DNA from: a virus
DNA length: 35,500 nt
IMG/VR virus record: IMGVR_UViG_3300030430_002680
Coordinates: 1 to 35,500 of that record
Direction: 5' to 3' (one strand)
The position numbers and the translations under genes were made by a program. Each line of letters opens with the position of its first letter. Positions within the stretch are counted from its first letter, which is position 1. This document shows, in pieces, positions 3,001 through 26,345 of the stretch. Under the pieces are notes generated by a model. The model ran no database searches and was not told the origin of the DNA. It saw nothing but the letters and a program-made list of their open reading frames with translations.

Positions 3001-6000
3001 GCTATTAATATGCAAAACCATCAACTGTATGGTGTCAATAATCTACGGTTTAACGATCCTGGGGTTAACGAAGGTATTAAGTGGGACGGTGGTAATGAAT
3101 GGCAGATTTATGAGTCACCCGACAATCAAACAAATGCCTCAGGTAATTTACAGTTTACTACTGGTTCTGGTGGCGGGACACTTAAAGCTACTTTAGATAC
3201 GTCTGGTAACTTTATTGCGAGACACTCAAGCGGAACTACACGAATAGGCCAAGACGGTAATTATGGTAATTACGGATCGCTTGGTTTTGGTGGACATACC
3301 AACGGATCAAATAGAATTTTTGGTCATTATAGTACAGGAGATGGTTTATATTTAGCGTCCGCTACTGGTCGTGGGGTTTTTATAAGAACAAATGGTGGTA
3401 ACGCTAATAACTTTGAGTTTACAAGTGGCGGTGACTTAAAAGTAGCAGGATCAACATTTGTTACTTCAGGTAGGGAAATACAAAATGCTTCTGTAGCGGC
3501 ATCTTCTTCAATAGCTCCTAGAAGACGTGGTACTGCTTCTGTTAATAACTCTGGTTATGTTCATGCATTCAGAGTTGATGGCGATAATTTAGCGAGTTCA
3601 ATTAGATTTACGGTTCATGGAACAACGGGAAGCGTTGTCATTAACTCAGAAATTTTTGTTTCTTGTAATCATTTTAAAGATATTTTTATAGAAAGTAATA
3701 GCGGATTTTATACGGTGCTTACGGTAAAAGTTGTAAGTAATGGTAATGAAGATTTTTCTGTTTATTTAAAAACAAATTCTGCAAACACTGCTACTGTTCA
3801 AATAGAAGTATTTCCTCTTAATAATGAAGTAATTACATTTACTTCTACTGACCAAGGTTTCACAACTAAAACATTAGAACATACTTGTGAGTACGGTAAA
3901 AGACTTAGTGCAGAAGATAATGTATCTGGTCGTGGATTTGACATTGAAACAGACGGACAAATAGATGCACTTAAATATCAAATCAGCGGTACGACAGTAA
4001 TAGGCGCAGATAGGTCGTTAACAAGCATTAATAGCATTACTTCTGGTGGAAACATTAACACTACAAGCGGTGGCTTTCAGATAAATGGCGCTACTGTAAT
4101 TAATAGCAGTAGACATATCAATTTATTTACAAGCGGTAGCACTGGTACGGAACAAATTAACTTAGCTAGAGGAGGTAGAATTACTTTCTATGGCGATACA
4201 AATGCCAAACATTCAATAGGATCTCGTGATCTAAATGGAGCTATTTCTGATGATATAAGAATAAATACGTATGGCGGTTTGTCTATAAATTTAGACTCTA
4301 ACGACAATAATGCAGGTAACGCTAATTTTACAATAGGCAGACATGGCGGTGGAAGTAGCACTATATCTGAACTAATGACCGTATCTGGTGAAACGGGTGC
4401 TATAAATACAAATTCAACAATTACAGCAGGGTCTACAATACATCGCGGCAATCTGACTATTGATAGTCAAGAGATAGATGTAGGTTCTGGTGATCTTGCT
4501 TTAGACGTTGCAGGAAACATTACTCTTGATGCAGGTGGTGGAAATATAGACCTCAAGGAAGGTGGCACTACGTTTGGTAGGCTACAAGAAATGATTGGTG
4601 GCCTTGGTATATCTGCCGGATCAACACCTACGTTTGCACAGCTTATTTCTTCTACTAAAACACTTTTCTTTGGACACATTGAGCTAGGTGATAACAAGCA
4701 CGTTCAATGGGGAGATTCAGGTGGTGATCTTCAGATATATCACGATGGGTCAGATAGTTACATAAAAGAATATGGCACTGGTGCTCTTAAAATTCTTACA
4801 AATGGATTACGTGTAAGAAACGCGGCAGATGATGAGGACATGATTACTGCTAATCAAAACGGAGCAGTAAATTTATATCACGATAATACAAATGTTTTAC
4901 AGACCATGACTGGTGGTGTAAACATTACAGGTGAATTGCAGTCTGATTCATTAGATGTAGACGGTGCTGTAGATATAGATGGAAATACAGTTATCACTGG
5001 TAGTTCCGGTACTGGCTTTGCGCTTGAAGTTGAACGTGGTGATAACTCTGCGGATGTACTTTTAGCTTATAACAATGGTGTTGTACAAACACCAAATAAT
5101 TATTTGTTTGCTTCACGTTCAGGTGGTGTATCGTTTTACTCACAAAGCGCGGCTGTTTTTAGAGGAGGAATTCTTAATGATCAGTCTGGTCAGGCTTTAA
5201 CAGTAAGTGATGATTTAAACATTACAGGCTCTACTTCAATTAATGGTACACAAATCATTTCATCTTCAAGAGCTTTATCAAACGTCACTGGTAACATCTC
5301 CATGTTTACTAACGATGCGGGTTATTTAACTTCAGCTACGTTAGGAAGTAATTTGAATGCCGACACTGTAGATTCACTACATGCATCTTCATTTTTAAGA
5401 TCAGACGCAAATGACACTATGAATAATACCCTTACTTTTGGTTCGGGTTCTGGATTTGATTTAGCAACATTTGATATATATGGAAGTATGCGAGTTATCA
5501 GAAATAATAAATCTGGTAGCGATGGAATGTACATTGGATATCTTAATTCTAATAGTGGTGTTACAAGGATTTTTGGTGGCGGTCAAGGATCTGGTGGTAT
5601 TTACATTCAAGGAAGCGGTGCTAATGATATTAAATATAATAACTCATCTACGTTTTGGCACGCAGGGAACGATGGAAGTGGATCAGGACTCGATGCTGAC
5701 ACTTTAGATGGATATCAGTCTGGTTATTTTGCTACTCAAGGTAACTTAGGAAATTATCTAGCCTTAAGTGGCGGTACGATGACTGGCACTATTACAAGCC
5801 GTGATCTTTTATTGCAGTCTGGTTATCACTTAATGAGATCAAACCATCACACAGGTCATCTTGAAGGTTCATACAATAACGTAGGTGGAAACGCTGTTAA
5901 GTCAAACCCAATTTATACGATAGGCTCAAATTACAATCCTTTAGAAGCATCACTACAAAATATGTACGGTATTGGATTCGCTAAGAATAGTGCCTCATAT

Positions 6001-7716
6001 ATGACAGGAGACCTTGATGCAGGAAATAATAATGGTTGGGGTTTATATGTTGCGGCAGACGGTGATGCAAGAGTATTCCTAAACGGTTCTCATGGTATTA
6101 TCAGTTCTACAGGACAACACTATGCAGATGGTCAACTCGTTTGGAACGCAGGAAATGATGGTAGTGGATCAGGATTAGACGCTGACACTGTGGACGGTAT
6201 TCATGGGTCTTCACTTTTAAGATCAGACACCGCTGATACAGCGTCAGGAGCATTAACGCTTACAAATAACAATAATCATTTCAAAGGGCATTTATATTTT
6301 GATGAATATAGCTCCGGTAGACATTACATTCATTTCACTACAGCAGGTTCTACTAACCAAATTGATTGGCGAATACAAACTAATAATGCTAATTCGGTAG
6401 TCCATCAATGGTCAAACACCAATGCTTATTTTGCTACTCAGGTTCAAACAGCAACGCAGGGTATTCTTTGGGGTGCATCAAACGATGGCAGTGGGAGTGG
6501 ACTTGATGCTGATACCGTTGATGGTATTCAAGGTGCTAGTTTCTTACGATCAGATGCAAATGATTCTGTTACAGGCGACAAAACAACAACTCTTCAAAGA
6601 TTACAATTTAACGGTGTAGGCGGTAACTCTGGCGCCACAAATAATAGTTATGCAATTTATCAAGAAGCAGGTTCTTGGTCACACCCATACCCTGATTTAA
6701 TAATTGGCTACCATACAGGTATTAAAATGGGAGGCCACACTAGTTATGGTGGTGTTCGTTTTTATAATAATAATCCTACTAGTGGTTCAATTATAGCTTC
6801 TATCGGAGATGGCGATCAAAACTTTAGAGGCTATCATAACGGTTTTTTAAGACATGGCGGAAATACTGATCACAAAATAATGACTGTCGGAAACGATGGT
6901 TCAGGATCAGGATTTGACGCTGATACCGTTGACGGAGTTCACGCATCATCTCTTTATGGAGTAACTTCCGTTGCAACTGGCGGTGGACTTACAGGCGGCA
7001 CGATTACATCTACAGGTACAATTAGTCACGCTGATACTTCTAGTGTTTCTAATGTAAACAATAGCGGTAATACTTTTATACAAGACATTACATTTGATAC
7101 TTATGGTCACGTAACAAGCGTAACGTCTGCTACTGCAACGTCAAGTGGTGGCGGTGGAGCTAGTAGTTCTCAAACGGTTACTGCAAGGGTAAAAGCAAAT
7201 AGACTTGATTATATAGCAGCGACTAGCCCCGCAACTATATTTACAGCTACATCAGGGAAAGTAATAGTTTTAGAAGAAGCTATTTGTTTCATTGATGCTG
7301 ATGCTGTATCAGCAAGTGGGTATCCCGTGTTTGGTTATCCAATAAGAGTAAGAGTTAAATCACAATGGAACAATAGCAGCGATGCTTATATACATAGAGA
7401 TGGTGGAATGACGTTTACAAAAGAGGCATTAAATTCTTTGTTCCGATCTAACTCGCAATCTGCAAATTATTCTGCAAACATGAAAAGATTCTTAGTAGCA
7501 CAACCTCGTGATCCAACCGCTAATAACCCAGATCAGCAACAACAAATTGCAGAGGTTAATAGTAGTGATGGAACTTTTAATAGTAAAATAGAACTTACAA
7601 TGGATTCATATGTGAACACTTCTACTTCTGAAGATTATTACTTTTATTTCCAAGTGAAATTTAGAGAAGTAACTCTTAGTGATATCACTGGTGCATCTGG
7701 TATGGTAACAATTTAA
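1..7716 (+). CDS. Giant repetitive tail fibre protein (5' end missing)
   Basis: Frame 1 is open from the first base to the TAA at 7714-7716, so the gene enters from the left and at least 2571 residues lie in the window; the ATG at 1099 is only internal. The protein is Gly/Ser/Thr/Asn-rich and has hallmarks of marine phage fibres: GELALNYADGKIFYK and SGSYNDLTDVP near the left edge, a FSNDTNTGIYRGG module (about 1176), and a DLQIYHDGSDSYIKEYGTG module (about 4730). A short SSRxLxN-type strand recurs at about 2040, 2470, 2750, 3465, 4005, 4105 and 5260. A DADTVDG-type motif recurs at about 5355, 5690, 6175, 6505 and 6915. A block of roughly 80 residues at about 1496-1725 recurs diverged at about 4975-5210. 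The role is host receptor binding at the virion tail. I see no S74-type self-cleaving chaperone at the C-terminus. Confidence 0.9.
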   Translation, partial: LKNSGSSGNTPSSLVHGELALNYADGKIFYKNSSNSIVEFASGASFSGSYNDLTDVPFTYNNITGVSTNADLGIIFHTGGTALQADAHAELTFNPSSNLLKVGGDVTITGSYTADTHFKSSDGNVTLSATGGGGVYLRPDGSTSSSTQLYIQSGTGNAEFSGTISSGAITADTGGSSQNALNIGGSSATNYTLQRWLTSAHSGNEAYIIAYGASHSSEAGNFAIKNLEANSDIFFELASSVIPLRLTSTGATFAESVNVSGDLNIASTLAHTGDLDTYFQFNAANTARIVVGGSQKLVINTNGAQISNGTLTVATTSTNGILVSGNTGGLNFTGGNNRIYFGGQRALEGVTSSGNIQIGEGFSGNLLLQMATEVQGQLSVTDGSVGAPSIRFSNDTNTGIYRGGDDNFIIATGGANRVTVTSAGIFSSANLYSGTTGSYRNFAGTWAGTTGTANNGFYFLNTANSNTTKAMELSHDGNVVFAGQVQGSSLDINGGAEISGNTTITGNTSSGNAFLANRGDGGGQGLRVHNTGEVVVPTNYLYAARSSGSAFYAQGSAVFRGGITNDGGNTLSISSGSSNINFNSKNLTSVGSITSSGNLVLDATGHNYIELHSATANTRKWRFYNGQGWNQDALLIYDQDADQTAVTIETGKLGINRGASSLSHNLDVGGSVAISGTQILDSSRNLSNIGTISSGAITSSGQILTTIESSTAIKSRFIMGKAGGSTANGNLYLQYGSSDTVFIGAGSGGAGLDIAGTLKTGRTGINTASVSDVQLKIKTSTNDSTDFAIEAQSANGSALFSLDGAGEVRLAGNVKMSGTTIITSGRGLTNLTLSHGAGGTRFETNDWHRSTDNDQRFYFEASGRTFYKASSHQFRNASNATQFNINTNGHIHIASNGDSGASSTEYIKAGGVAILTSSRVLQNVSGNISMFTNDSNYATQTYVTNAISDLVDSAPSALDTLNELAAALGDDASFSTTVTNSIATKLPLAGGTLTGTLNSKAINMQNHQLYGVNNLRFNDPGVNEGIKWDGGNEWQIYESPDNQTNASGNLQFTTGSGGGTLKATLDTSGNFIARHSSGTTRIGQDGNYGNYGSLGFGGHTNGSNRIFGHYSTGDGLYLASATGRGVFIRTNGGNANNFEFTSGGDLKVAGSTFVTSGREIQNASVAASSSIAPRRRGTASVNNSGYVHAFRVDGDNLASSIRFTVHGTTGSVVINSEIFVSCNHFKDIFIESNSGFYTVLTVKVVSNGNEDFSVYLKTNSANTATVQIEVFPLNNEVITFTSTDQGFTTKTLEHTCEYGKRLSAEDNVSGRGFDIETDGQIDALKYQISGTTVIGADRSLTSINSITSGGNINTTSGGFQINGATVINSSRHINLFTSGSTGTEQINLARGGRITFYGDTNAKHSIGSRDLNGAISDDIRINTYGGLSINLDSNDNNAGNANFTIGRHGGGSSTISELMTVSGETGAINTNSTITAGSTIHRGNLTIDSQEIDVGSGDLALDVAGNITLDAGGGNIDLKEGGTTFGRLQEMIGGLGISAGSTPTFAQLISSTKTLFFGHIELGDNKHVQWGDSGGDLQIYHDGSDSYIKEYGTGALKILTNGLRVRNAADDEDMITANQNGAVNLYHDNTNVLQTMTGGVNITGELQSDSLDVDGAVDIDGNTVITGSSGTGFALEVERGDNSADVLLAYNNGVVQTPNNYLFASRSGGVSFYSQSAAVFRGGILNDQSGQALTVSDDLNITGSTSINGTQIISSSRALSNVTGNISMFTNDAGYLTSATLGSNLNADTVDSLHASSFLRSDANDTMNNTLTFGSGSGFDLATFDIYGSMRVIRNNKSGSDGMYIGYLNSNSGVTRIFGGGQGSGGIYIQGSGANDIKYNNSSTFWHAGNDGSGSGLDADTLDGYQSGYFATQGNLGNYLALSGGTMTGTITSRDLLLQSGYHLMRSNHHTGHLEGSYNNVGGNAVKSNPIYTIGSNYNPLEASLQNMYGIGFAKNSASYMTGDLDAGNNNGWGLYVAADGDARVFLNGSHGIISSTGQHYADGQLVWNAGNDGSGSGLDADTVDGIHGSSLLRSDTADTASGALTLTNNNNHFKGHLYFDEYSSGRHYIHFTTAGSTNQIDWRIQTNNANSVVHQWSNTNAYFATQVQTATQGILWGASNDGSGSGLDADTVDGIQGASFLRSDANDSVTGDKTTTLQRLQFNGVGGNSGATNNSYAIYQEAGSWSHPYPDLIIGYHTGIKMGGHTSYGGVRFYNNNPTSGSIIASIGDGDQNFRGYHNGFLRHGGNTDHKIMTVGNDGSGSGFDADTVDGVHASSLYGVTSVATGGGLTGGTITSTGTISHADTSSVSNVNNSGNTFIQDITFDTYGHVTSVTSATATSSGGGGASSSQTVTARVKANRLDYIAATSPATIFTATSGKVIVLEEAICFIDADAVSASGYPVFGYPIRVRVKSQWNNSSDAYIHRDGGMTFTKEALNSLFRSNSQSANYSANMKRFLVAQPRDPTANNPDQQQQIAEVNSSDGTFNSKIELTMDSYVNTSTSEDYYFYFQVKFREVTLSDITGASGMVTI

Positions 7717-12044: not shown

Positions 12045-12500
12045 GTGTCAAGAAAACCTAGACCTGAAGATTTTGAAGACATTCATGCTCTAGGACAATG
12101 GATGCAAGAAAACAGTCATTTCGCAAACAATGGATGGTGTTCGCGTAAAATTTATACGATTGTTTCCTTAGCTCAAAATCCAGACTCAAATATCTTTTTA
12201 AGAGTATGTGAAAGAAACAATAAGATTATTGGTTTTTTTGTCGGATCTGTAAGCGAATACTTCTTTTCCGATAAACTAATTGCTCAAGACATGGTGCTTG
12301 TTTTTCATCCTAATGAAAGACAAAACATATCAAGAGATATTATAAGACTAATAAAAGATTTTGAAAAGTGGGCTAAAGAAAAAGGAGCTACAGAAGTAGC
12401 GATTGGAATTACAAGTGGGATAGCGGGTGAAGGATATCCCAAGTTATTAAAGAGGCTTGGTTATGATCAAGTCGGAATACTGACCAAGAAAGAGGTGTAA
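12045..12500 (+). CDS. GNAT-family acetyltransferase-like protein
   Basis: A 151-residue protein starting at GTG. The order of strands and helices fits the phage-type GNAT fold: an N-terminal helix (FEDIHALGQWMQ), a central strand pair (IFLRVCERNNKIIGFFVGSV, about 52-71), the strand AQDMVLVFHPNERQNISRDIIRLIKDFEKWA (about 81-111), where a V...HP...R pattern substitutes for the acetyl-CoA-binding Q/RxxGxG/A loop, then a strand AIGITSG and the terminal LLKRLGYDQVGILTKKEV typical of GNATs. Such genes are common next to ejection-protein genes in T7-like phages; the substrate is unknown. The degenerate coenzyme-A loop leaves some doubt about activity. It is preceded by a predicted promoter and followed by the next gene after 2 bases. 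Confidence 0.72.
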   Translation: MSRKPRPEDFEDIHALGQWMQENSHFANNGWCSRKIYTIVSLAQNPDSNIFLRVCERNNKIIGFFVGSVSEYFFSDKLIAQDMVLVFHPNERQNISRDIIRLIKDFEKWAKEKGATEVAIGITSGIAGEGYPKLLKRLGYDQVGILTKKEV

Positions 12501-13087: not shown

Positions 13088-13624
13088 ATGTGTTCTGGCG
13101 GTTCTGAAAATCCTTATGAAAGAGTGTTTTCGCAACTTAATACAGGTGTGCAAAATGAAGTAAGACCTATGTTTGATGAGTCTTATAACCCTTATGAAAA
13201 TATTCCAACCAGCGTTGCTAGAGGAAGGGGTGCTGGCAAAAGACCAGCAGATGATTTGTTTGCTCAGTTAATTAGAGCGCAGACTAGAGATTATATGACT
13301 AGATTTGCACCAGTAGAAAGAGATTTGACAGGCATGATTACAAGAACTGGTACAACAAGTTTACCTGATGATCTTATGAGAACAGGTGATGCAATTACTA
13401 CAGCAGCTGAAAATGCTGCGGGACAACAAAGAAGACGTTTAGAAAGGTTTGGACTCACAGGAAACAACGATATAGGACAAGATAACACATACATTAGTTC
13501 TTTGGTTGGTGGATTTAATGATGCAATAGATAGAGATAGAGACAGGCGATCTGCACTAATAGGTGGAGTTGGAAATGTCTCTTCTACTTCAAGAGCAAGA
13601 ACGAAGGGCATGGGAGGTTACTAA
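13088..13624 (+). CDS. Internal virion protein (178 aa), possible paralogue of the preceding gene
   Basis: A 178-residue protein starting MCSGGSENPYERVF, with AAGGAG 8 bases before the ATG. It shares with its upstream neighbour the MC-x-GG opening, similar length, a middle helical part ending in ERFGLTGNNDIGQ, and a final Arg/Ser/Gly-rich tail. Between them lies an Arg-rich segment (VARGRGAGKRPADD, about 42-56) that could bind nucleic acid. No catalytic motif is visible. Its position within the core block points to a virion component; similar small proteins are seen there in marine T7-like phages. Confidence 0.62.
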   Translation: MCSGGSENPYERVFSQLNTGVQNEVRPMFDESYNPYENIPTSVARGRGAGKRPADDLFAQLIRAQTRDYMTRFAPVERDLTGMITRTGTTSLPDDLMRTGDAITTAAENAAGQQRRRLERFGLTGNNDIGQDNTYISSLVGGFNDAIDRDRDRRSALIGGVGNVSSTSRARTKGMGGY

Positions 13625-13625
13625 T

Positions 13626-14207
13626 ATGTCTTTAATACAGCTAGGAAGAGCAAAATTAAATATGGCGAATCAAGGTTTTGGCGTTGTAGCTAAAGCCGAA
13701 GCTCAAGAAATAGCTAATGAAATGTCTATGGATGCACAGAAAAAAGCGTTGCAAGGTCAAACTTTAGGTACAGCTGGAGGAATTGGAGCGCAAGTTGGTG
13801 TAAATAAAGCATTATCTGCTACTGAAAAGACAGCGACTGCGATAGGAAATATTAATAAAGGTATTGAGGGTATTGGTAAGGCGGGATTGCAGGGTGACAA
13901 ACTTACATTTTTTAGATCAGGAACGACTATGGATGCGGTAGTTGGAGAAGCGGCTGAAAAAGCAATAGCTGAATCATTTGCAGAAAAAGCTATGGTTGAA
14001 GCTAGTAAAGGTGCTGGTACAACGACTGAAGTTATTTCAGCTATGAATAAAGCACAAGCAACTGGTTTAGCTGAAGGTAAAGCTGCTGTTGATGCAGCAT
14101 CCGCAGCGGCAGCTGGTTCTAGTCCTATGGCTACATTAGCTCAGATAGCGGCTCCTGTGGCTATTGCAATGGGAATTGGATTCCTTCTTAATAAAATATT
14201 TGATTGA
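13626..14207 (+). CDS. Internal virion protein with hydrophobic C-terminus (193 aa)
   Basis: The start is placed at the ATG at 13626, which has GGAGG 8 bases upstream; an in-frame GTG at 13563 would overlap the previous gene and lacks a comparable site. The protein is Ala/Gly/Lys-rich and helical, with stretches resembling amphipathic membrane-associating segments (GTAGGIGAQVGVNKAL). It ends in a clear hydrophobic segment (AQIAAPVAIAMGIGFLLNKIF, last 24 residues). That fits a core protein that inserts into the host envelope during DNA ejection. No named family is recognised. Confidence 0.65.
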   Translation: MSLIQLGRAKLNMANQGFGVVAKAEAQEIANEMSMDAQKKALQGQTLGTAGGIGAQVGVNKALSATEKTATAIGNINKGIEGIGKAGLQGDKLTFFRSGTTMDAVVGEAAEKAIAESFAEKAMVEASKGAGTTTEVISAMNKAQATGLAEGKAAVDAASAAAAGSSPMATLAQIAAPVAIAMGIGFLLNKIFD

Positions 14208-14215
14208 GGTGATTT

Positions 14216-15697
14216 ATGGTACTTGGTTTTGCTGAAGGTTTCCGATCTGGTTATGGAATGGTAGAAGATACCATTGAGCGCAGACAAAGAAGAAGGGACA
14301 GGCGAGAGGATATCGAAAGATTAGATCGCATTCGTGAAGAAGAAAGAACGCAAAGGAGAATGGAGCGAGAAGAAGATTTGGTTCGTTCAGCTATGGAGCG
14401 ACAACAAGATATTGATTTTAGACAAGAACAATTACAAGTAGAAAGAGATAGAATAGGATTTGATCAAGGTCTAAAACTTGCTCAACAAATCAATCAAAAT
14501 AATAAGTCGGATATCGAGATTCAAGAAGCAAAACTTAGAATCGGTTTAGTTGAAGAAGAACAGAAAAGAAAAAAAGAAGAAGAGGACATTGCTAAAGGTG
14601 GACTTGCCCTAACCAATTTAATAAATAGGGGACTTCCAAAAGGTTTGGGTGAAGGCGGTGAATTAACAGATGAGCAAGCATCAGAGATTAATGGGCTTCT
14701 TGCATTGGCAGTTGCCTCTCCTTTAGATCCAACTCCGGCTCTGGATCTTTTTGCTGAAGACGCTATAAAAAATGCACAAGACTCTTTAAGTGCATTTGCT
14801 CGTGGCGAACAAGGAGATAATGATGCCATTTTAGGCGCTATTAATAACTTGCTTGTTTTTAACAATAAAAAATTAGTTGGGAAAACGGTAACTTTAGATG
14901 AGTTTCCAAATGCTCCCCCAAAATTTGCAAATGGTGATTTTGAGGTATTAGGAACAGAGGTGTCTGATATAGACGGTCGCATGGATGAAAACGGTAATCC
15001 AGTGATCGATACCACTGTATTTGTAAGTCTTGAAAATAAAAGAACTGGTGAAACAACGGGTTACTTTACTGAGATGACAGAAGGTAGGCAACCAACAGGA
15101 GTTCAATATTCATTGCCTGTTAATGAAATGACAAAGGCATTTGGTCAAAAACTTATTTATTTAGATTACATTAAAAATAATAGAGAAAGTCTTTTAGAGC
15201 AAATTGAAAATGCAACATTTAGAAAAGATGGAAAATATGATCGTAAGGCATATGAAGATCGTTTAGCTGAACAAGACAAAAGATTTCAAGAAGAGCTTGA
15301 ATACAAAGTAGATATGCCAGTAGTTCAAGGTTCAAGACTTACATTTGGAGATGTTGCAAAAGATCCTAAATTAAGAGATGAATATGTAAGACAGAAAACA
15401 CTTTTAGGTGTTGATCCAACCCATGATTTAGCAAAAGAAATGAAGACTCTTTTTGAAGAGGTAAGATCCCTTCCCCAAATACAAAAATTTGAACAAAGAC
15501 TTAATAGACTCCGCAAACCTCTACTAAATAATAAAGATTTATCTGAATTAGTCTCTTTGTTAGATTATGATGAAAGTGGGGACAAAATTATTCTTAAACA
15601 AGAAAACAAAGATGAGTATAAGGATCTTTTAAGAAGAAAATTACAATCAGGCAGACAGTCAGTTGCTCTAGGTCAATTCATCCCTCCGTCTAGGTAA
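14216..15697 (+). CDS. Coiled-coil internal virion protein, gp15-like (493 aa)
   Basis: A 493-residue highly charged protein. Residues about 20-125 form a nearly continuous Arg/Glu/Gln-rich coiled coil (repeats of ERxxRRxxREED), and the C-terminal half is mixed helical with no catalytic motif. GAGG lies 6 bases before the ATG and the following giant gene begins 6 bases after the stop. In T7-like phages the gene just before the largest ejection protein encodes the middle core protein (gp15 in T7), so the assignment rests on size, order and helical character. The antisense strand has a 164-codon open frame (14521-15015) that I treat as a shadow. Confidence 0.68.
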   Translation: MVLGFAEGFRSGYGMVEDTIERRQRRRDRREDIERLDRIREEERTQRRMEREEDLVRSAMERQQDIDFRQEQLQVERDRIGFDQGLKLAQQINQNNKSDIEIQEAKLRIGLVEEEQKRKKEEEDIAKGGLALTNLINRGLPKGLGEGGELTDEQASEINGLLALAVASPLDPTPALDLFAEDAIKNAQDSLSAFARGEQGDNDAILGAINNLLVFNNKKLVGKTVTLDEFPNAPPKFANGDFEVLGTEVSDIDGRMDENGNPVIDTTVFVSLENKRTGETTGYFTEMTEGRQPTGVQYSLPVNEMTKAFGQKLIYLDYIKNNRESLLEQIENATFRKDGKYDRKAYEDRLAEQDKRFQEELEYKVDMPVVQGSRLTFGDVAKDPKLRDEYVRQKTLLGVDPTHDLAKEMKTLFEEVRSLPQIQKFEQRLNRLRKPLLNNKDLSELVSLLDYDESGDKIILKQENKDEYKDLLRRKLQSGRQSVALGQFIPPSR

Positions 15698-15703
15698 TCA
15701 AGC

Positions 15704-18700
15704 ATGTTATCTTTAGGGTCAACAAATCCATACAAATCTTTACAAAAAAGATCATTTCAATCTGCCTCAACAGAAACTGGAGTTTTTAATGAAATTGGTA
15801 AAGGTTTTGGTGCGGGAGTAGATCAGCTACAAGCCCTTGGTATAGGTGGAACAAAAGCATTATTTGGACAGCTTATTGGTAATGAAGAAATGTTTCAAAG
15901 CGGCATTGAATATTACCAAGAACAAATGTCTGAAGCATCTGCGGCAGAAGTAGAAAGAATAGAAGATGTCGATGGATTTTACGATGGAGTTCTTTGGGCT
16001 TCATATTTAGTTGGTAATGTAGTACCAACTCTTGTTGGAGGTATTGCGTCTGGTGGTGTTGGTGGTTTTGTAGCTAATCTGGCGGTCAAAAAGAAAGTAA
16101 AAGATGAAGTTAGCAAAATAGCAAGAAAACAAACTGAAAAAGTTGTTAAAGAAAAAGCAAAAAAAGCATCATTTAAAAAATCTCTTGCAAATCAGTATAA
16201 AAAAATAAAAGGAGATCCTGTCAGAATAGGGCAAGGTATTGGAGCTTTTACATATAGTGCTGCTTTAGGTGCTTCAGAATCAACTGCTAATTTGTATGAA
16301 GAAGCAGATGAAAGAAATTCTGCACTTGCATTGTCAGTTGGACTTGCTTCAGGAGCTTTAGATGCTTTAGTTCCAATGAGAGCATTAAAAAAATTATTAC
16401 CAACAAAAAAATTTAAAGAAGCGCAAGATCAAATCTCTGATCAAGTAATGTCTAATCAAAAGCCTATAACAAGAACTCTAATTGAAATGGCTAAATTAGG
16501 TGGTTCGGAAGGTGTAACCGAGGCGCTTCAAGAAATCGTCCAACAATCAGCCGTTGAATATGTAAAAGGTCAAAATGATTCAAGTCTTGAAAAAGACTTT
16601 TTTGGAAGATTATTTGACGAGGAAAATAGATCAGTTTACTTAAATGCGGCATTTGCTGGCGCTATCGGTGGTGGTATTGTTGGTATTCCCACAGGCATTG
16701 TTGGTGATCCAACTCCTACAAGAACATTAGAGGAAGCTACTAGAGCAGAGCAAGAGTCACAAGCACCTCAAGAAACGCCTTTAGACCCAAATAATCCGAG
16801 AAATATTACACCCGAAAAGTTACGGGAAAACTTAGAAATGATAAGGCTTTTAGAAGAAGAGGGTTTAGAGGTAGCTGTCCAAGATACATCGACAGATCAA
16901 AGTGCTACTGAAGTTCAACTTAAAGCTAGACAAAATGCGAGAGACTTATTAAATAGAACTGCTGAATATAGAGCGTTAGCTCAAAATATTATTGAAGATC
17001 AATTTGCATTACACATAGCAGAGCTTGAGAGACAAAGAGGTGGCGTTAGAGATTTAGTGGTATCTGAACAAACACCTCAAAATGTTAGTGAGACAGTGAG
17101 AGTTACTAGGCAACAACAAGAAAGTCTGCAAGAAAATTTGAACAAAGTTATTGAGCAAGCGAGAGAAGCTGGATTAAATGTTGATATGCTTTCTGATGCT
17201 AATTTTGCAATTCAAGATCAACTTGCACAGAGAGTCGCTGAATTAGCAACAAGTGGTGGAGAGGTTGCGGTTGCTACGCAAGCAGTAGAGCAAGATACTG
17301 ACAGAAGATTGGCTCAACTTGATGAGCAAATACAAGAAAGAAGAATAGCTAGAAATGTTGACGCTCTTACGGGCGAAACTATTGAGACTGTTAATGTTTC
17401 TGAAATTAGTCTTGGATCGTTACCCACAGAAATACAACAAGCAGTAGCAGCATTAGCTGAAAATGAGACTGAAGTACCAGTATTTGTATCTGAAGAAATA
17501 TATGAAAGAGCAGTTAATACAATACCTTTGCCATTTAGAGAAGAAGTTGATAGCGAAGGTAGAAAGATTATTGACCTTCAAAGAGATAAAAGAAAGGATA
17601 CTGCAAATCCAGAAAATTATTATTTTGGGGAAGTAACAACAACCCCCACCGCAGAAGATAACTTATTCTTGGCAGATGCTATAAGAAAAGTGCTAAGACA
17701 AAACGGGGACGATTACAACGATGCTATAACAAGAGCAATGCTCGATTTAAACAAAGCTGGTGTTGGAAATATATTTTCTGCTGAAAGGTTTGTAGTACCT
17801 CCTATTGAAAGAATGCAAAGACCTTATGGTGAAGCTGCGGCATCTTATAGCCCATCAACAAATGTAATTAGTTTAAGTCCAACATTAATCCAAGACTCAT
17901 TAGGAAATACTAATGGACAAAGATATTTAAGATTTGTTATGGCGCATGAGTTAGGCCATCAATTTGATTTATCTAATGAAGTTTCGGAAAATGTTTCAGA
18001 GTTTGATGTAACTGGTTTGCAGCAAGATAATGGTAATTTTAGATTATCTGTCGGTGATGCAGTAGCTGAAATATTTGCGGAATATCAATCAGGAAGTGAT
18101 TTTGGTTTGCTGTTTGAACATCCTATTAGATACATGCACCGCGATTTTGAAAAGGCAATACAGAAAGGGAATGTAGACGAAGTATTAGCATTGCACAGAA
18201 AAGAAATTTTTGCTCAAGCATATGCAATATACTATACAGATCCTGTAAACTTTAGAGAGAAGTTGCCTAAAGTACATGAAGTATTAACAAGGGAGATAAC
18301 TGATGAAAGAAATAATAATCAAGCCACCGACAGACTCTCCGATGGTGATGGAGTACGAGAAGACATTCGGGCATTTACCAGCAATAGAAGCGAGGAAGTG
18401 GTTGAGCCTAGAGCAACTAGAGAGAGCGGCAGAACAGGCGTTGAAGGACAACAAGCCGATCAAAGAGTGGGAAGAGAGGGAGAACAAGACGATGGACTCA
18501 GTGCTAGACGAGGCTTATTAGACGATAATGATGTCTTTGATTTACCTACGAGAACAGCCCAAGAGATAGAGAGAGATGATGGTTTAATAGATTCTGTTCG
18601 TGAAACTACAACTAGACTTGAAGCAACAAAATCTAAAGCTAGAACAACCTTCCGTAAATATTTATTACCAAGAGGATTATTACCTGAGACTGCTTTTGAT

Positions 18701-21235
18701 TCAATGATTGAAAGAGATGGTCTGATAGGTGCGGCTGAAATAGAGGTCAGGCAACTATTAGGCAATTACAGAAATGCAGTTAGAGAAAAACTTGGCAGAG
18801 ATCCTTCACAAGAAGATAAAAAAACTTTGAATGATCTTCTATCAGGAAGTTTATCTGATGTTGAAAATGCGGTTATTCCCGAAAGCATAAAAGAACCTTT
18901 GAGAGCAATGAGGGTTTACCTTGATAATTACTCTGATCAATATGCTAAAGCTATCTTCAAAGATATTGAAAAACTTGTTGCACAGGGGAAAGAAGGTCAA
19001 GCCGCAACAAAGATTGATTTGCTCAATACTATTATCGAAAGAAAAGGCACATATGTAACAAGATCATATCGTGCTTTTGATGATAAAAACTGGTTCAAAA
19101 AAGTTCCAGAAGAAGTCATCGTAGCAGCGAGAGACTTTCTAGTAGAGCAAGGTAGCACAAATCCTATTCAAGTAATAAATACAATTCTCAAAGAAGGTAC
19201 AGCTTATCAAGACTTGCCAACGCTCATAAGAGAGACAAAACTTGGAGCAAAAGACTTATCTAATTTAATGAAAAAGAAAAATATTGCTCCTGAGATAAGA
19301 GCGTTATTAGGTGAATACACTGATCCAGAAGTAAACTTTGCTAGATCAGCAACAAAAATGAGTCGTTACATATTCAATACTTATTTCTTAGAAAGAGTTT
19401 TAGAATTAGGTGAAGGTGTATTTTTATTCAAACCTGAAAACGCACCACCTGATCATTTTGTAAAAATAGCAGCTGATAATTCATCTGTTTTGGCTCCCTT
19501 GAATGGATATGTTACTACGCCAGAAATAAATCAAGCATTCATTGATGCTATAGATCCTTCATCTCCAACTGGTTTATATGGATCAATTATCAGAGCAAAT
19601 GCTTTTGTTAAGTTTGGTAAGACAGTCATTGCACCTACAACAATGGCAAGAAACTTTTTATCAGCCGCATTGTTTACTGTAGCCAATGGTCATTTTAACT
19701 GGGCTAAAACAAGTAAAGCAAGACAAGCTAGAAAAGCATATTTTAATAATTTATCTGATCAAGAGATGGTTGATTATCTTAAAGAGATAAAAAAACTTGG
19801 CGTTAATTATGATTCTGCAATCGCTGGTGAATTAATAGACACTTTAAAAGATACACAATTTGGTGCAGATATTGTCTTTGATGAAGAAGGCGCAACAATC
19901 AGCACAAAAGCAAAAAGAAAAGTTTCAAAGACAGCTGAATTTTTTACAAAGGCTTACCAGTTTGGTGATGATTTCTGGAAGATTGTCGGTTTTGAAAATG
20001 AGGTTGATATTCTTATGAATGCTAAGGGCATAACCAGAGAAGAAGCTATGCCTGAAGCTGCAAAAAGAATAAGAGATACTTACCCTACTTATTCATTGGT
20101 TGGAGCGGGAGTTAAGTGGTTAAGAAGATTCCCCTTAATTGGTACATTTGTTTCATTCCCTTACGAAATAATTCGAAACAAAATGAACATGCTTAGATAT
20201 CTTGCAAGAGATATGAAAGATCCAGATTTAAAGAAAACAGTTCCTAGAAGACTTTTAGGTTTAGCTTTAGCTAATGCTGGTGCATACGGATTAGTATATG
20301 CATCTAAAGGAATGCTTGATGTTTCGGACGATGAAGAAGAAGCAATTCGATTGATGGCTCCACCTTGGTCACGAAACTCTAATTTATTAGTGACGAGCAG
20401 AGAGCCTGATGGAAAAATTAATTACTTGGATCTATCCCATATGGATCCTTATGCTCAATTTAAAAGACCAGTAAACGCTCTTTTTAGAGATGGAGATATT
20501 GAGGATAAAATTTATGATGCAACGTGGGAATTTTTCAAACCATTTTTAGGATGGGATATATCAACAAAAACTTTATTAGAATTGATTGGGAATAAAAAAG
20601 AGTCTGGAGCACAAATATATAATGAATCAGACACTTTACTAAATAGATCAAAAGACATTTATATGCATATTGAAAGAGGCGTTGCTCCCGCTGTTTTGCA
20701 AAATTTAAGAAGAACTACTTCAGCATTGAATGGTGAGATCACTAAGTCTGGTAGGAAATTTTCAATAGAAGATGAAGCTATGGCTATTGTTGGATTTAGA
20801 ACTACTTTATTTGATCCTAAGACTGCTTTGTATTTCAAAGCATATGAGTTTAATGAAATGAAGAGGGAGTCTGTATCGCTTCTTACAAACGTCCTACGCG
20901 ATCCTAATGATGTATCTGAGGGAGATATTAGGACAGCCTTTAAAAACTCGTCACGAGCCAGAAAAGAGGCTTTTGAGCAAATGTCAAAGCTAGTTCAGGC
21001 AGCTTTAAAAGCGGGACTAACAAAAACACAAGCAATGATGATTTTACGAGCCAACAATGTAACTAAAGCTGATGCAAAAGCATTGGTAGAAGGAGGCATG
21101 ACGGCTTGGGAAATGTCAGATAGTAGTATTAAAAATACAGTGAAAAAATCTGACGTTTTATTTGGTGATAAAAAAACCAAAGAATTCAGGGAAAGATTTA
21201 AACTAGTAAATGAACTTTTGGAGCAAGAAATATGA
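15704..21235 (+). CDS. Giant ejection/internal virion protein with predicted zincin domain, gp16-like
   Basis: An 1843-residue protein. Residues about 20-240 contain Gly-rich hydrophobic segments (GIGGTKALFGQLIG, YLVGNVVPTLVGGIASGGVGG, SVGLASGALDAL) expected of membrane-inserting ejection proteins. Residues 340-600 are helical and Gln/Glu-rich. A metallopeptidase signature HELGH is at 748-752, with a likely third ligand in AEIFAEY (about 788-794), the layout of gluzincin-type proteases. A Gly/Arg/Glu/Asp-rich linker follows (about 867-945). The C-terminal 850 residues include VIAPTTMARNFLSAALF and LRRFPLIGTFVSFPYEIIRNKMNMLRYL, typical of marine phage core proteins. It lies at the end of the core block, as T7 gene 16 does, but carries a protease-like rather than a transglycosylase-like signature. 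The next gene overlaps its stop by 4 bases. A second frame inside it is described separately. Confidence 0.8.
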   Translation: MLSLGSTNPYKSLQKRSFQSASTETGVFNEIGKGFGAGVDQLQALGIGGTKALFGQLIGNEEMFQSGIEYYQEQMSEASAAEVERIEDVDGFYDGVLWASYLVGNVVPTLVGGIASGGVGGFVANLAVKKKVKDEVSKIARKQTEKVVKEKAKKASFKKSLANQYKKIKGDPVRIGQGIGAFTYSAALGASESTANLYEEADERNSALALSVGLASGALDALVPMRALKKLLPTKKFKEAQDQISDQVMSNQKPITRTLIEMAKLGGSEGVTEALQEIVQQSAVEYVKGQNDSSLEKDFFGRLFDEENRSVYLNAAFAGAIGGGIVGIPTGIVGDPTPTRTLEEATRAEQESQAPQETPLDPNNPRNITPEKLRENLEMIRLLEEEGLEVAVQDTSTDQSATEVQLKARQNARDLLNRTAEYRALAQNIIEDQFALHIAELERQRGGVRDLVVSEQTPQNVSETVRVTRQQQESLQENLNKVIEQAREAGLNVDMLSDANFAIQDQLAQRVAELATSGGEVAVATQAVEQDTDRRLAQLDEQIQERRIARNVDALTGETIETVNVSEISLGSLPTEIQQAVAALAENETEVPVFVSEEIYERAVNTIPLPFREEVDSEGRKIIDLQRDKRKDTANPENYYFGEVTTTPTAEDNLFLADAIRKVLRQNGDDYNDAITRAMLDLNKAGVGNIFSAERFVVPPIERMQRPYGEAAASYSPSTNVISLSPTLIQDSLGNTNGQRYLRFVMAHELGHQFDLSNEVSENVSEFDVTGLQQDNGNFRLSVGDAVAEIFAEYQSGSDFGLLFEHPIRYMHRDFEKAIQKGNVDEVLALHRKEIFAQAYAIYYTDPVNFREKLPKVHEVLTREITDERNNNQATDRLSDGDGVREDIRAFTSNRSEEVVEPRATRESGRTGVEGQQADQRVGREGEQDDGLSARRGLLDDNDVFDLPTRTAQEIERDDGLIDSVRETTTRLEATKSKARTTFRKYLLPRGLLPETAFDSMIERDGLIGAAEIEVRQLLGNYRNAVREKLGRDPSQEDKKTLNDLLSGSLSDVENAVIPESIKEPLRAMRVYLDNYSDQYAKAIFKDIEKLVAQGKEGQAATKIDLLNTIIERKGTYVTRSYRAFDDKNWFKKVPEEVIVAARDFLVEQGSTNPIQVINTILKEGTAYQDLPTLIRETKLGAKDLSNLMKKKNIAPEIRALLGEYTDPEVNFARSATKMSRYIFNTYFLERVLELGEGVFLFKPENAPPDHFVKIAADNSSVLAPLNGYVTTPEINQAFIDAIDPSSPTGLYGSIIRANAFVKFGKTVIAPTTMARNFLSAALFTVANGHFNWAKTSKARQARKAYFNNLSDQEMVDYLKEIKKLGVNYDSAIAGELIDTLKDTQFGADIVFDEEGATISTKAKRKVSKTAEFFTKAYQFGDDFWKIVGFENEVDILMNAKGITREEAMPEAAKRIRDTYPTYSLVGAGVKWLRRFPLIGTFVSFPYEIIRNKMNMLRYLARDMKDPDLKKTVPRRLLGLALANAGAYGLVYASKGMLDVSDDEEEAIRLMAPPWSRNSNLLVTSREPDGKINYLDLSHMDPYAQFKRPVNALFRDGDIEDKIYDATWEFFKPFLGWDISTKTLLELIGNKKESGAQIYNESDTLLNRSKDIYMHIERGVAPAVLQNLRRTTSALNGEITKSGRKFSIEDEAMAIVGFRTTLFDPKTALYFKAYEFNEMKRESVSLLTNVLRDPNDVSEGDIRTAFKNSSRARKEAFEQMSKLVQAALKAGLTKTQAMMILRANNVTKADAKALVEGGMTAWEMSDSSIKNTVKKSDVLFGDKKTKEFRERFKLVNELLEQEI
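18303..18521 (+). CDS. Candidate out-of-frame nested gene inside the giant ejection-protein gene (72 aa)
   Basis: An ATG-started 72-codon frame lying wholly inside the 1843-residue gene in a different frame. GGGAG (18291-18295) lies 7 bases before the ATG, and an in-frame TAA (18297-18299) sits just upstream, so this is a defined start. The product starts MKEIIIKPPTDSPMVMEYEK and continues with FGHLPAIEARKWLSLEQLERAAEQAL, which reads like a folded helical protein with normal residue balance. The host frame over the same bases is a low-complexity Gly/Arg/Glu/Asp/Gln linker. Local GC by hand count is 48% and 55% in the two 60-base rows inside, versus 35%, 40% and 33% in three nearby rows. Function is unknown; no family recognised. 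Confidence 0.55.
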   Translation: MKEIIIKPPTDSPMVMEYEKTFGHLPAIEARKWLSLEQLERAAEQALKDNKPIKEWEERENKTMDSVLDEAY

Positions 21236-22061: not shown

Positions 22062-22480
22062 TTGTTAAAGATTACAACATTGTAATGCTATATGACTGCA
22101 CTCCATTTAGTTATTTTTGTGAACTTAATCGTGTTGTAGATGGTGATACTATAAAAATGCGTAGAATTGATTTAGGTTTTGGTGTTTCTCTTCACGACAA
22201 AACAGTTAGGATACATGGTATAGATGTTCCAGAATCTAGGATAAACCTCAAGAAATTTCCAGAAAGAGAAAAAGAAAAAGAATTAGGTTTGCTTGCTAAA
22301 GAAAGAGTTGATAAATACCTAATGAATAGTCCTATAGCAATAACATCATATGGATATGATAAGTATGGTCGCATACTAGCTAATGTTTTTTGCAATGCGG
22401 GGTCTTTATCACAACTTCTTATAGAAGATAATTTAGCAGTAGAATATGATGGTGGTAAAAAAACAAAGGTATGGACTTAA
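22058..22480 (+). CDS. Thermonuclease-like (SNase) nuclease
   Basis: A 140-residue protein with the staphylococcal nuclease fold signatures: VVDGDTI (26-32, Asp28 and Asp30 matching the calcium ligands Asp19/Asp21 of SNase), VRIHGIDVPE (50-59, with Arg51, Asp56 and Glu59 matching Arg35, Asp40 and Glu43), and YGYDKYGRILANV (98-110, Arg105 matching Arg87). All the main catalytic residues are therefore present. It would degrade DNA or RNA with calcium. No obvious signal peptide is seen, so it may act in the cytoplasm or be released at lysis. It is the last gene of the rightward structural block and its last 4 bases overlap, tail to tail, the integrase gene. Confidence 0.85.
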   Translation: MIVKDYNIVMLYDCTPFSYFCELNRVVDGDTIKMRRIDLGFGVSLHDKTVRIHGIDVPESRINLKKFPEREKEKELGLLAKERVDKYLMNSPIAITSYGYDKYGRILANVFCNAGSLSQLLIEDNLAVEYDGGKKTKVWT

Positions 22481-23364
22481 CTTATTATTGAGTCTAATCT
22501 TTCAACGATCTCTTGTTTTTTCTCTGTGTTTACGTGAGCATATCTAGTAACGCTTTGTAAGTTTTTCCATCCTCCCGCTTCTTTTATTTGAAATATATCA
22601 ACTCCATCTTTTACTAATAATGTTGCAAAAGTATGTCGCAATGTATGTGGTGTAATATTTTTTTTCACACCACTTTTATGCACAGCCTTTTTCCAACAAC
22701 TATTTCCTAAAGAATTTGGGACTAAAGGTTTACCATTATTCTGCACAAACACATATTTAATTTTGCCTTTCAAATAAGGTCTTGATTTTTCAAGATATTC
22801 TTTTCGTTCCCACATTTTTATTATAATTTGTCTAGCGGAGTTACCAATAGCAAGAACATTTGGTTCGGCATTTTTCATTTCATCACTTTTCTGAGTCCAC
22901 TCTCTAAAATCATTTGATAGAGAAGACCATTTGAGATTAATTACATTTGATTTTCTCTGACCAGTAAGGGCAAGAAACTTAACAATGTTTGATCTTAAAA
23001 AGTCTAGCTGCTTGATAAACTTTACGAGTTCATCAGGTTCAAGATATATTTGTTTGCCCTTAACTTGTTTTGTTTTTATTTTGATTGTTGTATTTGATAA
23101 ACCATTTTCTAATCCAAAGTTCATAACTGCATTGAATGTTGCTATATATCTTTGAATAGTAGAATCAGAAAGATTCTTATTAGTTTTAAGATGTTTTTTA
23201 AACTGAAAAATATCTTTCCTTGTTAAATCAGAAAAAGATTTATTTTTAAAAAAATTTGTAATGACATTGCACCTTTGAACTTCATTCGGATGCTTTACAT
23301 TTCTTTCATTTTTTGAAGGCTCTTCTAGCCAATTTTCAGCAATCTCTAAGATTGATGATTCCAT
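22477..23364 (-). CDS. int: Tyrosine recombinase/integrase
   Basis: A 295-residue phage integrase. Residues about 1-95 form the SAM-like core-binding domain, and the catalytic domain follows. The active-site set is visible: Arg137 in LALTGQRKSN, His240 and Arg243 in HTLRHTF, Trp266 in AGGWKN (the His/Trp position) and the nucleophile Tyr275 in SVTRYAHVN. It catalyses site-specific integration and probably excision, so the phage is likely temperate. GGAG lies 7 bases before the ATG. A hairpin-plus-T-run (23380-23427) lies just upstream of this site, so transcripts from upstream genes would largely stop before int. The stop overlaps the nuclease gene tail to tail, leaving no room for attP there; a site upstream of int (23365-23461) is more plausible. 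Confidence 0.93.
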   Translation of the reverse strand: MESSILEIAENWLEEPSKNERNVKHPNEVQRCNVITNFFKNKSFSDLTRKDIFQFKKHLKTNKNLSDSTIQRYIATFNAVMNFGLENGLSNTTIKIKTKQVKGKQIYLEPDELVKFIKQLDFLRSNIVKFLALTGQRKSNVINLKWSSLSNDFREWTQKSDEMKNAEPNVLAIGNSARQIIIKMWERKEYLEKSRPYLKGKIKYVFVQNNGKPLVPNSLGNSCWKKAVHKSGVKKNITPHTLRHTFATLLVKDGVDIFQIKEAGGWKNLQSVTRYAHVNTEKKQEIVERLDSIIS

Positions 23365-24164: not shown

Positions 24165-24602
24165 CTAAAATGGAATGTCATCATCAAAATCACTTACAGG
24201 ATTTTGCTTTTCTTCCACTGGTGTAGCCTTTTTTGGCTCAACTGGTGGTGGAGCTTTTTTTGGTTCAACTGGAGGCAAAGACTTCTTGTACTCTTTAAAA
24301 CTAGGAACTCCTCCACTGACCCATAAATCACCGATCTTCAACATTGGAGTTCCATCTAACTTCTTTGCAATTTTTCCTTTCCAGTTGATCCTATCTTGAT
24401 CCATTTTTAAAGAATATGACAACCACTGAATAAATTGTTCATCAATTTTGATAAAGCCATCATAGTCGTGACATTGATCGTCTGTAGCCCATGCCTGACC
24501 AGTTTCCCTCAGACCCTTAAGCCTTAATAATTCATTTTGCCTTTTCTCTTCTGTAAGTTTATACAACCTTGCATTACCCGCTTGTACTTCAAAACTACTC
24601 AT
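24165..24602 (-). CDS. Single-stranded DNA-binding protein-like
   Basis: A 145-residue protein. The last residues, DFDDDIPF, are the acidic, Phe-terminated tip found on SSB proteins, which recruits partner proteins. Before it lies a Pro/Lys-rich linker with PVEPKKA twice (about 112-130). The N-terminal 100 residues (including WLSYSLKMDQDRINWKGKIAKKL) could form a small DNA-binding domain but are not a classic OB-fold SSB by eye. Its ATG overlaps the exonuclease stop (ATGA). Operon position with a DNA-annealing protein and exonuclease supports a recombination and replication SSB. If the tip is coincidental, it is an unknown accessory protein. Confidence 0.68.
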   Translation of the reverse strand: MSSFEVQAGNARLYKLTEEKRQNELLRLKGLRETGQAWATDDQCHDYDGFIKIDEQFIQWLSYSLKMDQDRINWKGKIAKKLDGTPMLKIGDLWVSGGVPSFKEYKKSLPPVEPKKAPPPVEPKKATPVEEKQNPVSDFDDDIPF

Positions 24603-25639
24603 AAAATATCTCCATATTTAATTGAAACTTGTCTAGTTCCATTGGGTCTTCTAAAGTCTTCTATAGACTTCTCTACTTTAAGCAAAAGTTCTTCGCCATT
24701 TATTTCAGCAAAGGCTTTCTTAAAATCAATGGGCGCTTTTTTGTGTGTTACTTGTACTATTGTTTCGTGATTACCCACACTTTTACCATATTTATCAGCT
24801 ATAAGATTCTTAAGTTCATTTGATTTTTTTTCTAAATCAGAAAGTTCATCAAACATATCTATGTTATCTAATTTTATATCGGCAATTCTTCTTTGAAGTT
24901 TTGTCAACCTAACTATAGCATCATCGTCTTCTACGTAGTCATAATCTCTAGCTGTTTTTTTTGCGCCTAAATACTTTTTTCTTTTTTCAGGATCACTGTA
25001 CTCTTCCTGAATATAATCATAGACACTTCTCCAAAGGTCAATTCTTTCAATCAATCCTTCTTTTGGTACAGGTAAATGTCTTGCAGAAACTTTTTCATAC
25101 AACCAATTATCTGTTCTTTCTATGGTTTCAAGGATTACTTGCGGGTCGTCAGAAGGTTTATTGACTTTGTAGCAAAGAAAATACATTCTTTCCAAATCAG
25201 CAACTTCCATTATTGTCCGGCACTGCATTTCATAATATTCTTTTTCAAAGACAGAATAAGGTTCTTTTGCATAGAACGGACACTTGATTTCTATACCCGC
25301 ATCAACACCAACTAAACCATCAGGTGATGCCGCAAGAAATGGATATTTATCATGCACTATTAGACCAGTTTCAAATACTTTCTTTCCTGTCCTCTCTTCA
25401 AAATATTTTCTTGCATAAGGCTCAAGTTTTGTTCCATGTTCAACCGCTTCATTTGTAACAAACTCGTCCTCGGCCTCTGATAATGCTCTTACTTTTTTTC
25501 TGACAAGATCATCGAATGATTCAAATTGATTTTTTCTTTCGATGACTGATGTTTCGGTTGCTGTAATTTTAGAGGCTCTAACTTTACGCCATTCAATACT
25601 GCCTTGCTCTAGTCCGGCAAAAGGTTGTGTATCAACCAT
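24599..25639 (-). CDS. YqaJ-type (lambda exonuclease-like) 5'-3' exonuclease
   Basis: A 346-residue PDDEXK nuclease. The family opening QGSIEWRKVRASKITATE (12-29), Glu73 in GTKLEPYA, Asp107 in AASPDGLV, Glu117-x-Lys119 in GIEIKCP and Gln139 in YYEMQCRTIMEV are all visible, which gives a complete active site. It should digest one strand of duplex DNA ends to expose single strands for the annealing protein encoded just upstream (start overlaps that stop, TAATG). The C-terminal 130 residues are coiled-coil-like (KLQRRIADIKL...). It is longer than lambda exonuclease (226 residues), as YqaJ-type proteins of marine phages often are. Confidence 0.88.
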   Translation of the reverse strand: MVDTQPFAGLEQGSIEWRKVRASKITATETSVIERKNQFESFDDLVRKKVRALSEAEDEFVTNEAVEHGTKLEPYARKYFEERTGKKVFETGLIVHDKYPFLAASPDGLVGVDAGIEIKCPFYAKEPYSVFEKEYYEMQCRTIMEVADLERMYFLCYKVNKPSDDPQVILETIERTDNWLYEKVSARHLPVPKEGLIERIDLWRSVYDYIQEEYSDPEKRKKYLGAKKTARDYDYVEDDDAIVRLTKLQRRIADIKLDNIDMFDELSDLEKKSNELKNLIADKYGKSVGNHETIVQVTHKKAPIDFKKAFAEINGEELLLKVEKSIEDFRRPNGTRQVSIKYGDIL

Positions 25640-26289
25640 TAGAAATCCCTCTCATCCGTTTCCTTAAAACCTCCTTGAGAAACGAATTCTAAAAATCTAT
25701 CTTCTTGATAATCTTTTAATCCAAGATTATTAAGTTGTTTAAGAAACTTATCATAAACTTTTTTAGCAGCGTCAAAAGTTTTTGTCTTATGGATTCCACT
25801 ATCTTTCCATAAATTATCAATCGTTTCCTCATTTGATATCTCTTTTGGCTTAGGTGCTTCTTCTTCTATATTTTCTTGCTCATCAACGGCATCTAACTCT
25901 TCATAATTTTTTAGATTCAAACCAAATTCTGCCATAGTAGCAACTCTGCACCTTTGTTTTGCTGTATGAATTTGAGTCGCAGAAGGATTTTGTATAGATT
26001 GCCAATCATCATGTATTGGGTATGATCTTTGTATTGTCCTACCTAGAACAGTCATTTTAATCCTAACCTCTGCTGTCCCATTTCTATAATAATGGCACTC
26101 ATTTCCATCGGGATCTCTTTCAAATGTCCAACTGTAGTTAGGGTCGATGCTCATCATAAGTCTATGTGCAGTAGACCACGGTAACATCGTGATAATTTTG
26201 CCGTCTTTAGTGGGTTTTTCTGATTCTTTTAGATATCCTGTAACATCAATATCATAAGCTTGCAGGAAAGCAGATTTTTTGTCTGACAT
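25639..26289 (-). CDS. Single-strand annealing protein, DUF1071/Sak3-like
   Basis: The start is set at the ATG at 26289, preceded by ATGGAG with a 7-base spacer; an in-frame extension to 26340 would run through the promoter region. The 216-residue protein has the DUF1071 (Sak3-type Rad52-like) pattern: LPWSTAHRLMMSIDPNYSW (about 36-54), a strand pair through YYRNGTAEVRIKMTVLGRTI, PIHDDW, then the helix NPSATQIHTAKQRCRVATMAEFGLNL. The C-terminal 80 residues are a charged helix. It would anneal complementary single strands and partner the YqaJ exonuclease directly downstream. It is the first gene of the leftward operon. Confidence 0.8.
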   Translation of the reverse strand: MSDKKSAFLQAYDIDVTGYLKESEKPTKDGKIITMLPWSTAHRLMMSIDPNYSWTFERDPDGNECHYYRNGTAEVRIKMTVLGRTIQRSYPIHDDWQSIQNPSATQIHTAKQRCRVATMAEFGLNLKNYEELDAVDEQENIEEEAPKPKEISNEETIDNLWKDSGIHKTKTFDAAKKVYDKFLKQLNNLGLKDYQEDRFLEFVSQGGFKETDERDF

Positions 26290-26296
26290 AAACAAA

Positions 26297-26308
26297 CTCC
26301 ATGTAAAA
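26297..26308 (-). promoter_or_regulatory. Repeated leader element TTTTACATGGAG (annealing-protein copy)
   Basis: Identical over 12 bases to the int leader copy. A near match, TTTTCATGGAG at 26381-26391, lies on the opposite strand before the divergent gene at 26398. Confidence 0.5.
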
Positions 26309-26317
26309 TATTGTCTC

Positions 26318-26345
26318 ACTATACCAGTTTGGTTTGACAAATCAA
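26318..26345 (-). promoter_or_regulatory. Predicted leftward promoter of the recombination operon
   Basis: On the minus strand, TTGATT (26340-26345), a 16-base spacer and TATAGT (26318-26323) face the annealing-protein gene. It overlaps the rightward promoter's -35 region, so the two may compete. Confidence 0.4.

Follow-up and report, generated by a model that had tools for sequence, protein, structure and literature searches.

A conserved, putatively overprinted gene within an inter-domain linker of a giant phage protein of polyvalent type

Does a short reading frame that lies wholly inside a much longer phage gene, and out of frame with it, encode a second protein? The question is raised by positions 18303-18521 of a 35,500-nucleotide stretch of viral DNA (IMG/VR record IMGVR_UViG_3300030430_002680, positions 1 to 35,500; the window), where the initial annotation, made from the letters alone, had proposed a gene nested in the gene of a giant ejection protein. 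In this work we have compared the locus with its relatives, all of them metagenomic virus contigs, and conclude that the frame is very probably a real, overprinted and dual-coding protein gene, its translation being inferred in the absence of expression data.

The giant host protein and the frame nested in it

The host gene (15704-21235, plus strand, as are all parts of it described below) encodes a predicted giant multidomain protein of 1843 amino acids, of virion-structural or polyvalent type. It comprises an N-terminal module recognized as conserved in the alignment (GFGAGVDQ..., 15782-16760), a zincin-like metallopeptidase domain (17861-18301) with HELGH at 17945, a Glu that is a candidate for the third ligand and a FAQ motif, a linker (18302-18520) and a C-terminal module (18662-21235). 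The HExxH motif and the downstream Glu are conserved in all 12 peptidase domains aligned. The domain of one relative (L044) weakly matches a single zincin Pfam family (E 4e-5, below the gathering cutoff); the host protein of the window gives no gathering-level Pfam match and matches no Pfam polyvalent-protein model. The PHROG family phrog_22602, annotated as 'virion structural protein', matches host residues 1029-1824 with E 1.6e-68. The C-terminal module is common to the window, L002, L041, L043, L044, L046 and L048 at 49-86% identity and is exchanged in some relatives: L024/L035 and L033 carry an unrelated module behind the same N-terminus and peptidase, and the module of the window type has not been found in L038, L039 or L040. 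In the host protein of L033 (4655-7300) a MarR-like winged-helix stretch also separates the N-terminal module from the peptidase, and in Pseudoalteromonas phage vB_Pun_Y3 (L014, 8001-11604) the homologous C-terminal module is divided between two annotated genes.

The nested frame (18303-18521) lies entirely within the host ORF, in the +1 frame relative to it, and comprises 72 codons closed by TAG. Its ATG at 18303 is preceded at a 7-base spacer by a Shine-Dalgarno-like AGGGAG (18290-18295), and the nested frame is closed upstream by TAA at 18297-18299, with a single codon (CTG) between this stop and the ATG. The predicted product is MKEIIIKPPTDSPMVMEYEKTFGHLPAIEARKWLSLEQLERAAEQALKDNKPIKEWEERENKTMDSVLDEAY. 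Read in the host frame, the same stretch gives DERNNNQATDRLSDGDGVRED...GLSARRGLL, a sequence rich in Gly, Arg, Glu, Asp and Gln. The 12 host-frame linkers are likewise G/E/D/Q/R-rich, contain 17% Gly and have no His, Met, Tyr, Trp or Cys, a composition as expected of a putative flexible tether with residues dictated by the nested frame. GC content is 48.6% in the overlap and 36.3% in the host gene, and is raised in the overlap in all 12 relatives. The start signals, the upstream stop, the elevated GC and the low-complexity linker behind HELGH, all pointed out in the initial annotation, were thus confirmed. An antisense ORF (18284-18487, minus strand) that shares the same wobble phase was rejected as a coding candidate; it has no clear Shine-Dalgarno sequence, and across the full nested span this frame contains stops in 10/12 sequences.

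The gene order of the window includes an internal virion protein (phrog_511), and the giant gene is closely followed, on the opposite strand, by genes for a tyrosine-type integrase (22477-23364), a YqaJ-type recombinase (24599-25639) and a Sak-type annealing protein (25639-26340); an integrase was also seen in L002, L041, L043, L044 and L048. This gene order and the phrog_22602 match point to a putative integrase-bearing tailed phage. Entry of the giant protein into the host cell is inferred from the gene order and the PHROG virion-structural match and has not been shown; of the claim that a gene is overprinted in the linker of an ejection protein, the overprinting behind the HExxH domain is supported, and the term 'ejection protein' remains an inference. 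Several neighboring genes deserve mention. The 493-aa gene directly before the host gene (14216-15697, plus strand) has no Pfam or PHROG match and evolves fast, with 36% identity to its L002 counterpart vs 54-97% for the genes upstream. An acetyltransferase-like gene (phrog_1249; 12045-12500, plus strand) stands among virion-type genes. Provided that its GTG start is correct, the gene at 13563-14207 (plus strand) overlaps the preceding one (13088-13624) by about 60 bases; its L002 counterpart begins near the end of the preceding gene. A second giant ORF (1-7716, plus strand; 2571 aa) extends beyond the window start and gave no Pfam match in the part scanned (1099-7713).

Recurrence of the nested frame and selection on both readings

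Searches of phages, viral contigs and genome contigs with one and two sequences of the nested product gave only L002, a viral contig with a 1892-aa host homologue and a homologous nested ORF in the matching position, the nested proteins being 66% identical and the host readings of the same bases 49%. The family was opened by a short-motif DNA pattern scan, which together with an HMM revealed the nested product in two records whose giant protein is a different one; the conserved host N-terminus, used as a scan query, retrieved 19 loci. The nested ORF is present in all 18 records (the window included; 12 distinct sequences) in which a related host gene extends past HExxH. The two exceptions, L037 and L042, are sequences that stop short of the nested region. 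In each of the 12 distinct sequences the ORF is intact, in the same position and in phase +1, begins with ATG, stops inside the host ORF and has 71-81 codons, and several of these ORFs recur in two or three distinct contigs, so a sequencing accident can be excluded. A relative in which the nested frame is broken but the host frame intact would have spoken against the gene; there is none among the 12, and start and stop are always kept. It is this recurrence, in an unchanged position, in each related virus reaching that far that makes the frame very probably a real, previously unknown phage gene.

Both readings of the shared bases are selected, the nested one being the better conserved. Mean identity over 66 pairs is 0.42 for the nested frame, 0.28 for the host frame and 0.33 for the third frame; nested identity exceeds that of the host frame in 65 of the 66 pairs, the BLOSUM score does so in all 66, and even the peptidase domain (mean pairwise identity 29%) is less conserved than the nested product in 64. 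Between the window and L002, substitutions at host codon positions 1/2/3 number 29/11/19 in the overlap vs 338/237/688 outside it (chi2 p 4.5e-4), the most variable position in the overlap being the nested wobble base, and no other non-overlapping segment of the host gene has more changes at position 1 than at position 3. Codon periodicity is also evident between L044 and L046 (p 5e-6) and weak between L033 and L035 (p 0.07-0.09), a saturated pair. The initial annotation had suggested testing synonymous-site constraint on aligned homologues, and host-synonymous conservation is indeed raised in the overlap for window/L002 (31/35 vs 876/1309, p 0.006), L033/L035 (20/26 vs 346/935, p 5e-5) and L044/L046 (23/27 vs 570/1217, p 6e-5). 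When the nested protein was recoded, the host frame remained open in only 0 to 0.7% of trials (P 0 to 0.007) in each of the 12 sequences, and of the six frames over the overlap the nested and host frames alone are open in 12/12, the other four not. Judged from these alignments, the nested frame is under purifying selection and the host reading is selected too.

These data bear on three readings that dispense with a separately initiated second protein. A low-complexity linker might simply lack +1 stops and its apparent conservation merely echo host homology. The window alone is no more than suggestive here, because redrawing codons from the usage of the gene under an unchanged host protein leaves the nested frame open in 5% of trials, and in GC-rich relatives the share reaches up to 37%; moreover, with the L002 host residues fixed, nested identity does not exceed its null expectation (P 0.64). 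That null is conservative, since the fixed host changes have already been filtered by the nested frame, and for identity it is uninformative. The recurrence in 12/12, the better conservation of the nested frame, the substitutions following its periodicity and the enrichment of start signals described below refute a chance ORF, which we regard as highly improbable. The lowered host-synonymous variation could also be produced by an RNA structure or a DNA signal constraining the bases without any second protein, but the consensus fold has just 5 pairs (-1.4 kcal/mol) with no compensatory pairs, there is no Rfam match, and the free positions are precisely the nested wobble positions, so this reading was rejected and retains next to no credence.

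The frame being +1 and directly behind the peptidase domain in all relatives would also suit a programmed frameshift from the host frame, by which alone the +1 frame would be read, yielding a truncated N-terminal/peptidase protein with an alternative tail. Against this, an ATG opens the conserved block in every relative and conservation starts at that ATG, in the window the TAA stop is only one codon ahead of it, and the DNA alignment shows no common slippery sequence upstream. A Shine-Dalgarno 4-mer precedes the nested ATG in 10 of the 12 sequences (L038 and L041 are without a clear one) vs 89 of 1068 (8.3%) other out-of-frame ATGs (p 9e-10). Frameshifting is accordingly very unlikely, if slightly less so than the two readings above, and an overprinted gene with its own start remains the preferred explanation. 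The nested protein would arise by internal initiation from its own Shine-Dalgarno sequence and ATG on the mRNA of the host gene, actual translation being inferred, and ribosomes in the host frame would read straight through, so that these bases also specify a flexible linker joining the metallopeptidase domain to the exchangeable C-terminal module.

The nested product, its linkage and its possible role

The product is predicted to be a small, mostly helical protein of about 72-73 amino acids. An AlphaFold2 model built from the 12 sequences has four short helices at moderate confidence (pLDDT 68, pTM 0.49); the folded helical protein expected from the composition is therefore borne out as to helices and only moderately as to fold. 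Eleven residues are invariant: M1, Y18, F22, H24, P26, E29, A43, A46, P52, W56 and D69. Cysteine is absent from all 12 products, so there is no lipobox, and the criterion for an Rz1-type spanin (a signal peptide with a lipobox cysteine) is not met in any of the 12. Sequence searches of Pfam, PHROGs, NCBIfam and PDB gave no consistent family, and fold searches of PDB and viral fold libraries gave no match below E 0.3. Weak matches to a Ghunavirus protein (E 4), a structural protein of a crAss-like phage (E 5), the PDB entry E8 (E 0.02), fumarase and PHROGs 10510 and 2827 were discarded as inconsistent across members.

The comparison shows dual coding, own start signals, a single copy, and linkage to the N-terminal/peptidase part of the host rather than to its C-terminal module. 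The nested ORF is kept where the C-terminal module is unrelated and stays with the N-terminal and peptidase part; in viruses that have only the C-terminal module in common (L003, L004, L009-L011) it is absent from the records examined. Distances between nested products correlate with those between host domains (0.72-0.75). Searches for stand-alone copies, which the initial annotation had proposed to make by tBLASTn, found none in the phage, viral-contig and genome-contig collections searched; peptide-pattern searches may overlook stand-alone or very divergent copies.

What the product may do can at present only be guessed. Our best specific guess, which has not been shown and to which we give somewhat less than even odds, is a cis-encoded partner of the peptidase-containing half, made alongside it as an inhibitor, a chaperone or a cofactor in processing. 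Such a regulator or chaperone would explain both the strict linkage to the peptidase part and the indifference to the C-terminal module; the linkage is nevertheless the sole evidence, and the data do not distinguish linkage to the peptidase from linkage to the N-terminal module. We hold this partner role no more firmly because a real overprinted gene whose role is independent of the peptidase, its place merely inherited, would explain the linkage equally. Such a gene might encode a small component of the virion or a protein that serves host takeover or anti-defence; vertical co-inheritance gives the same linkage and the same distance correlation, the product is more conserved than the peptidase itself, and it matches no known family. 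An independent role would, however, readily allow a stand-alone copy, and none was found in any collection searched; we consider it an even bet. The narrower proposal that the linker of a self-processing giant protein encodes a dedicated inhibitor or activator of the adjoining peptidase is not excluded, though we think it rather unlikely. If it were true, enzyme and regulator would stay locked together on a single piece of DNA as the cargo modules behind them are swapped.

A further alternative concerns origin and is compatible with overprinting as the preferred explanation: rather than arising de novo, a pre-existing small gene may have been swallowed as flanking ORFs fused through it. The position at a module boundary and the better conservation of the nested frame, beside which the host reading looks like a passenger, would fit this. 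On the other side, no unfused or stand-alone arrangement was found, and the host frame fits the codon usage of the gene better than the nested frame in 9/12. A better fit usually marks the older frame, but the comparison is confounded by stop avoidance. Fusion is thus a possibility that we entertain with some reserve.

Relation to known systems

Taken together, the alignments describe what is, on sequence evidence, a deeply conserved, unannotated gene overprinted in the linker between two domains of a giant phage protein of polyvalent type. ORFs that lie inside longer genes are usually dropped by annotation pipelines, and a conserved nested family therefore has no entry in any library searched. 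The gene offers a clean natural case of two proteins long sharing the same bases, in which the second frame and not the long one sets the sequence; the same kind of search can be extended to linkers in other giant phage proteins, and the linkage to a processing peptidase supplies a direct biochemical hypothesis.

Out-of-frame nested genes are known in phages, among them Rz1 in Rz, E in D of phiX174 and the lysis genes of RNA phages. The present gene resembles them in being complete within another gene, in a different frame and with its own start. It differs in that it occupies a linker between domains of a giant, virion-type protein from a tailed-phage-like virus, and its cysteine-free product is not lysis-like.

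Polyvalent phage proteins (Iyer et al. 2017, PMC5512222) are giant and multidomain, with a zincin-like HExxH hub, proposed to process the polypeptide, and with exchangeable modules. The present host is also giant and meets the criteria of a zincin-like HExxH peptidase with a downstream Glu and of exchangeable modules, virion delivery resting on the PHROG annotation only; unlike them, it matches no Pfam polyvalent-protein model. In the main text of that paper the word 'overlapping' does not occur, and 'nested' appears twice, both times for a hairpin fold. The family phrog_22602, from Cellulophaga phages phi13:2, phi18:3 and phi19:3, shares the homologous C-terminal module, but its match starts only after the nested gene and leaves the N-terminal part and the nested gene unmatched. 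In viruses generally, as far as the accessible parts of two accounts of overprinting go (PMC8227390, PMC6195259), a second frame is born or kept on an existing gene; compared with what those parts describe, the present second frame stands apart in lying in the linker of a modular giant protein and in being conserved across hosts with peptidase domains only about 25% identical.
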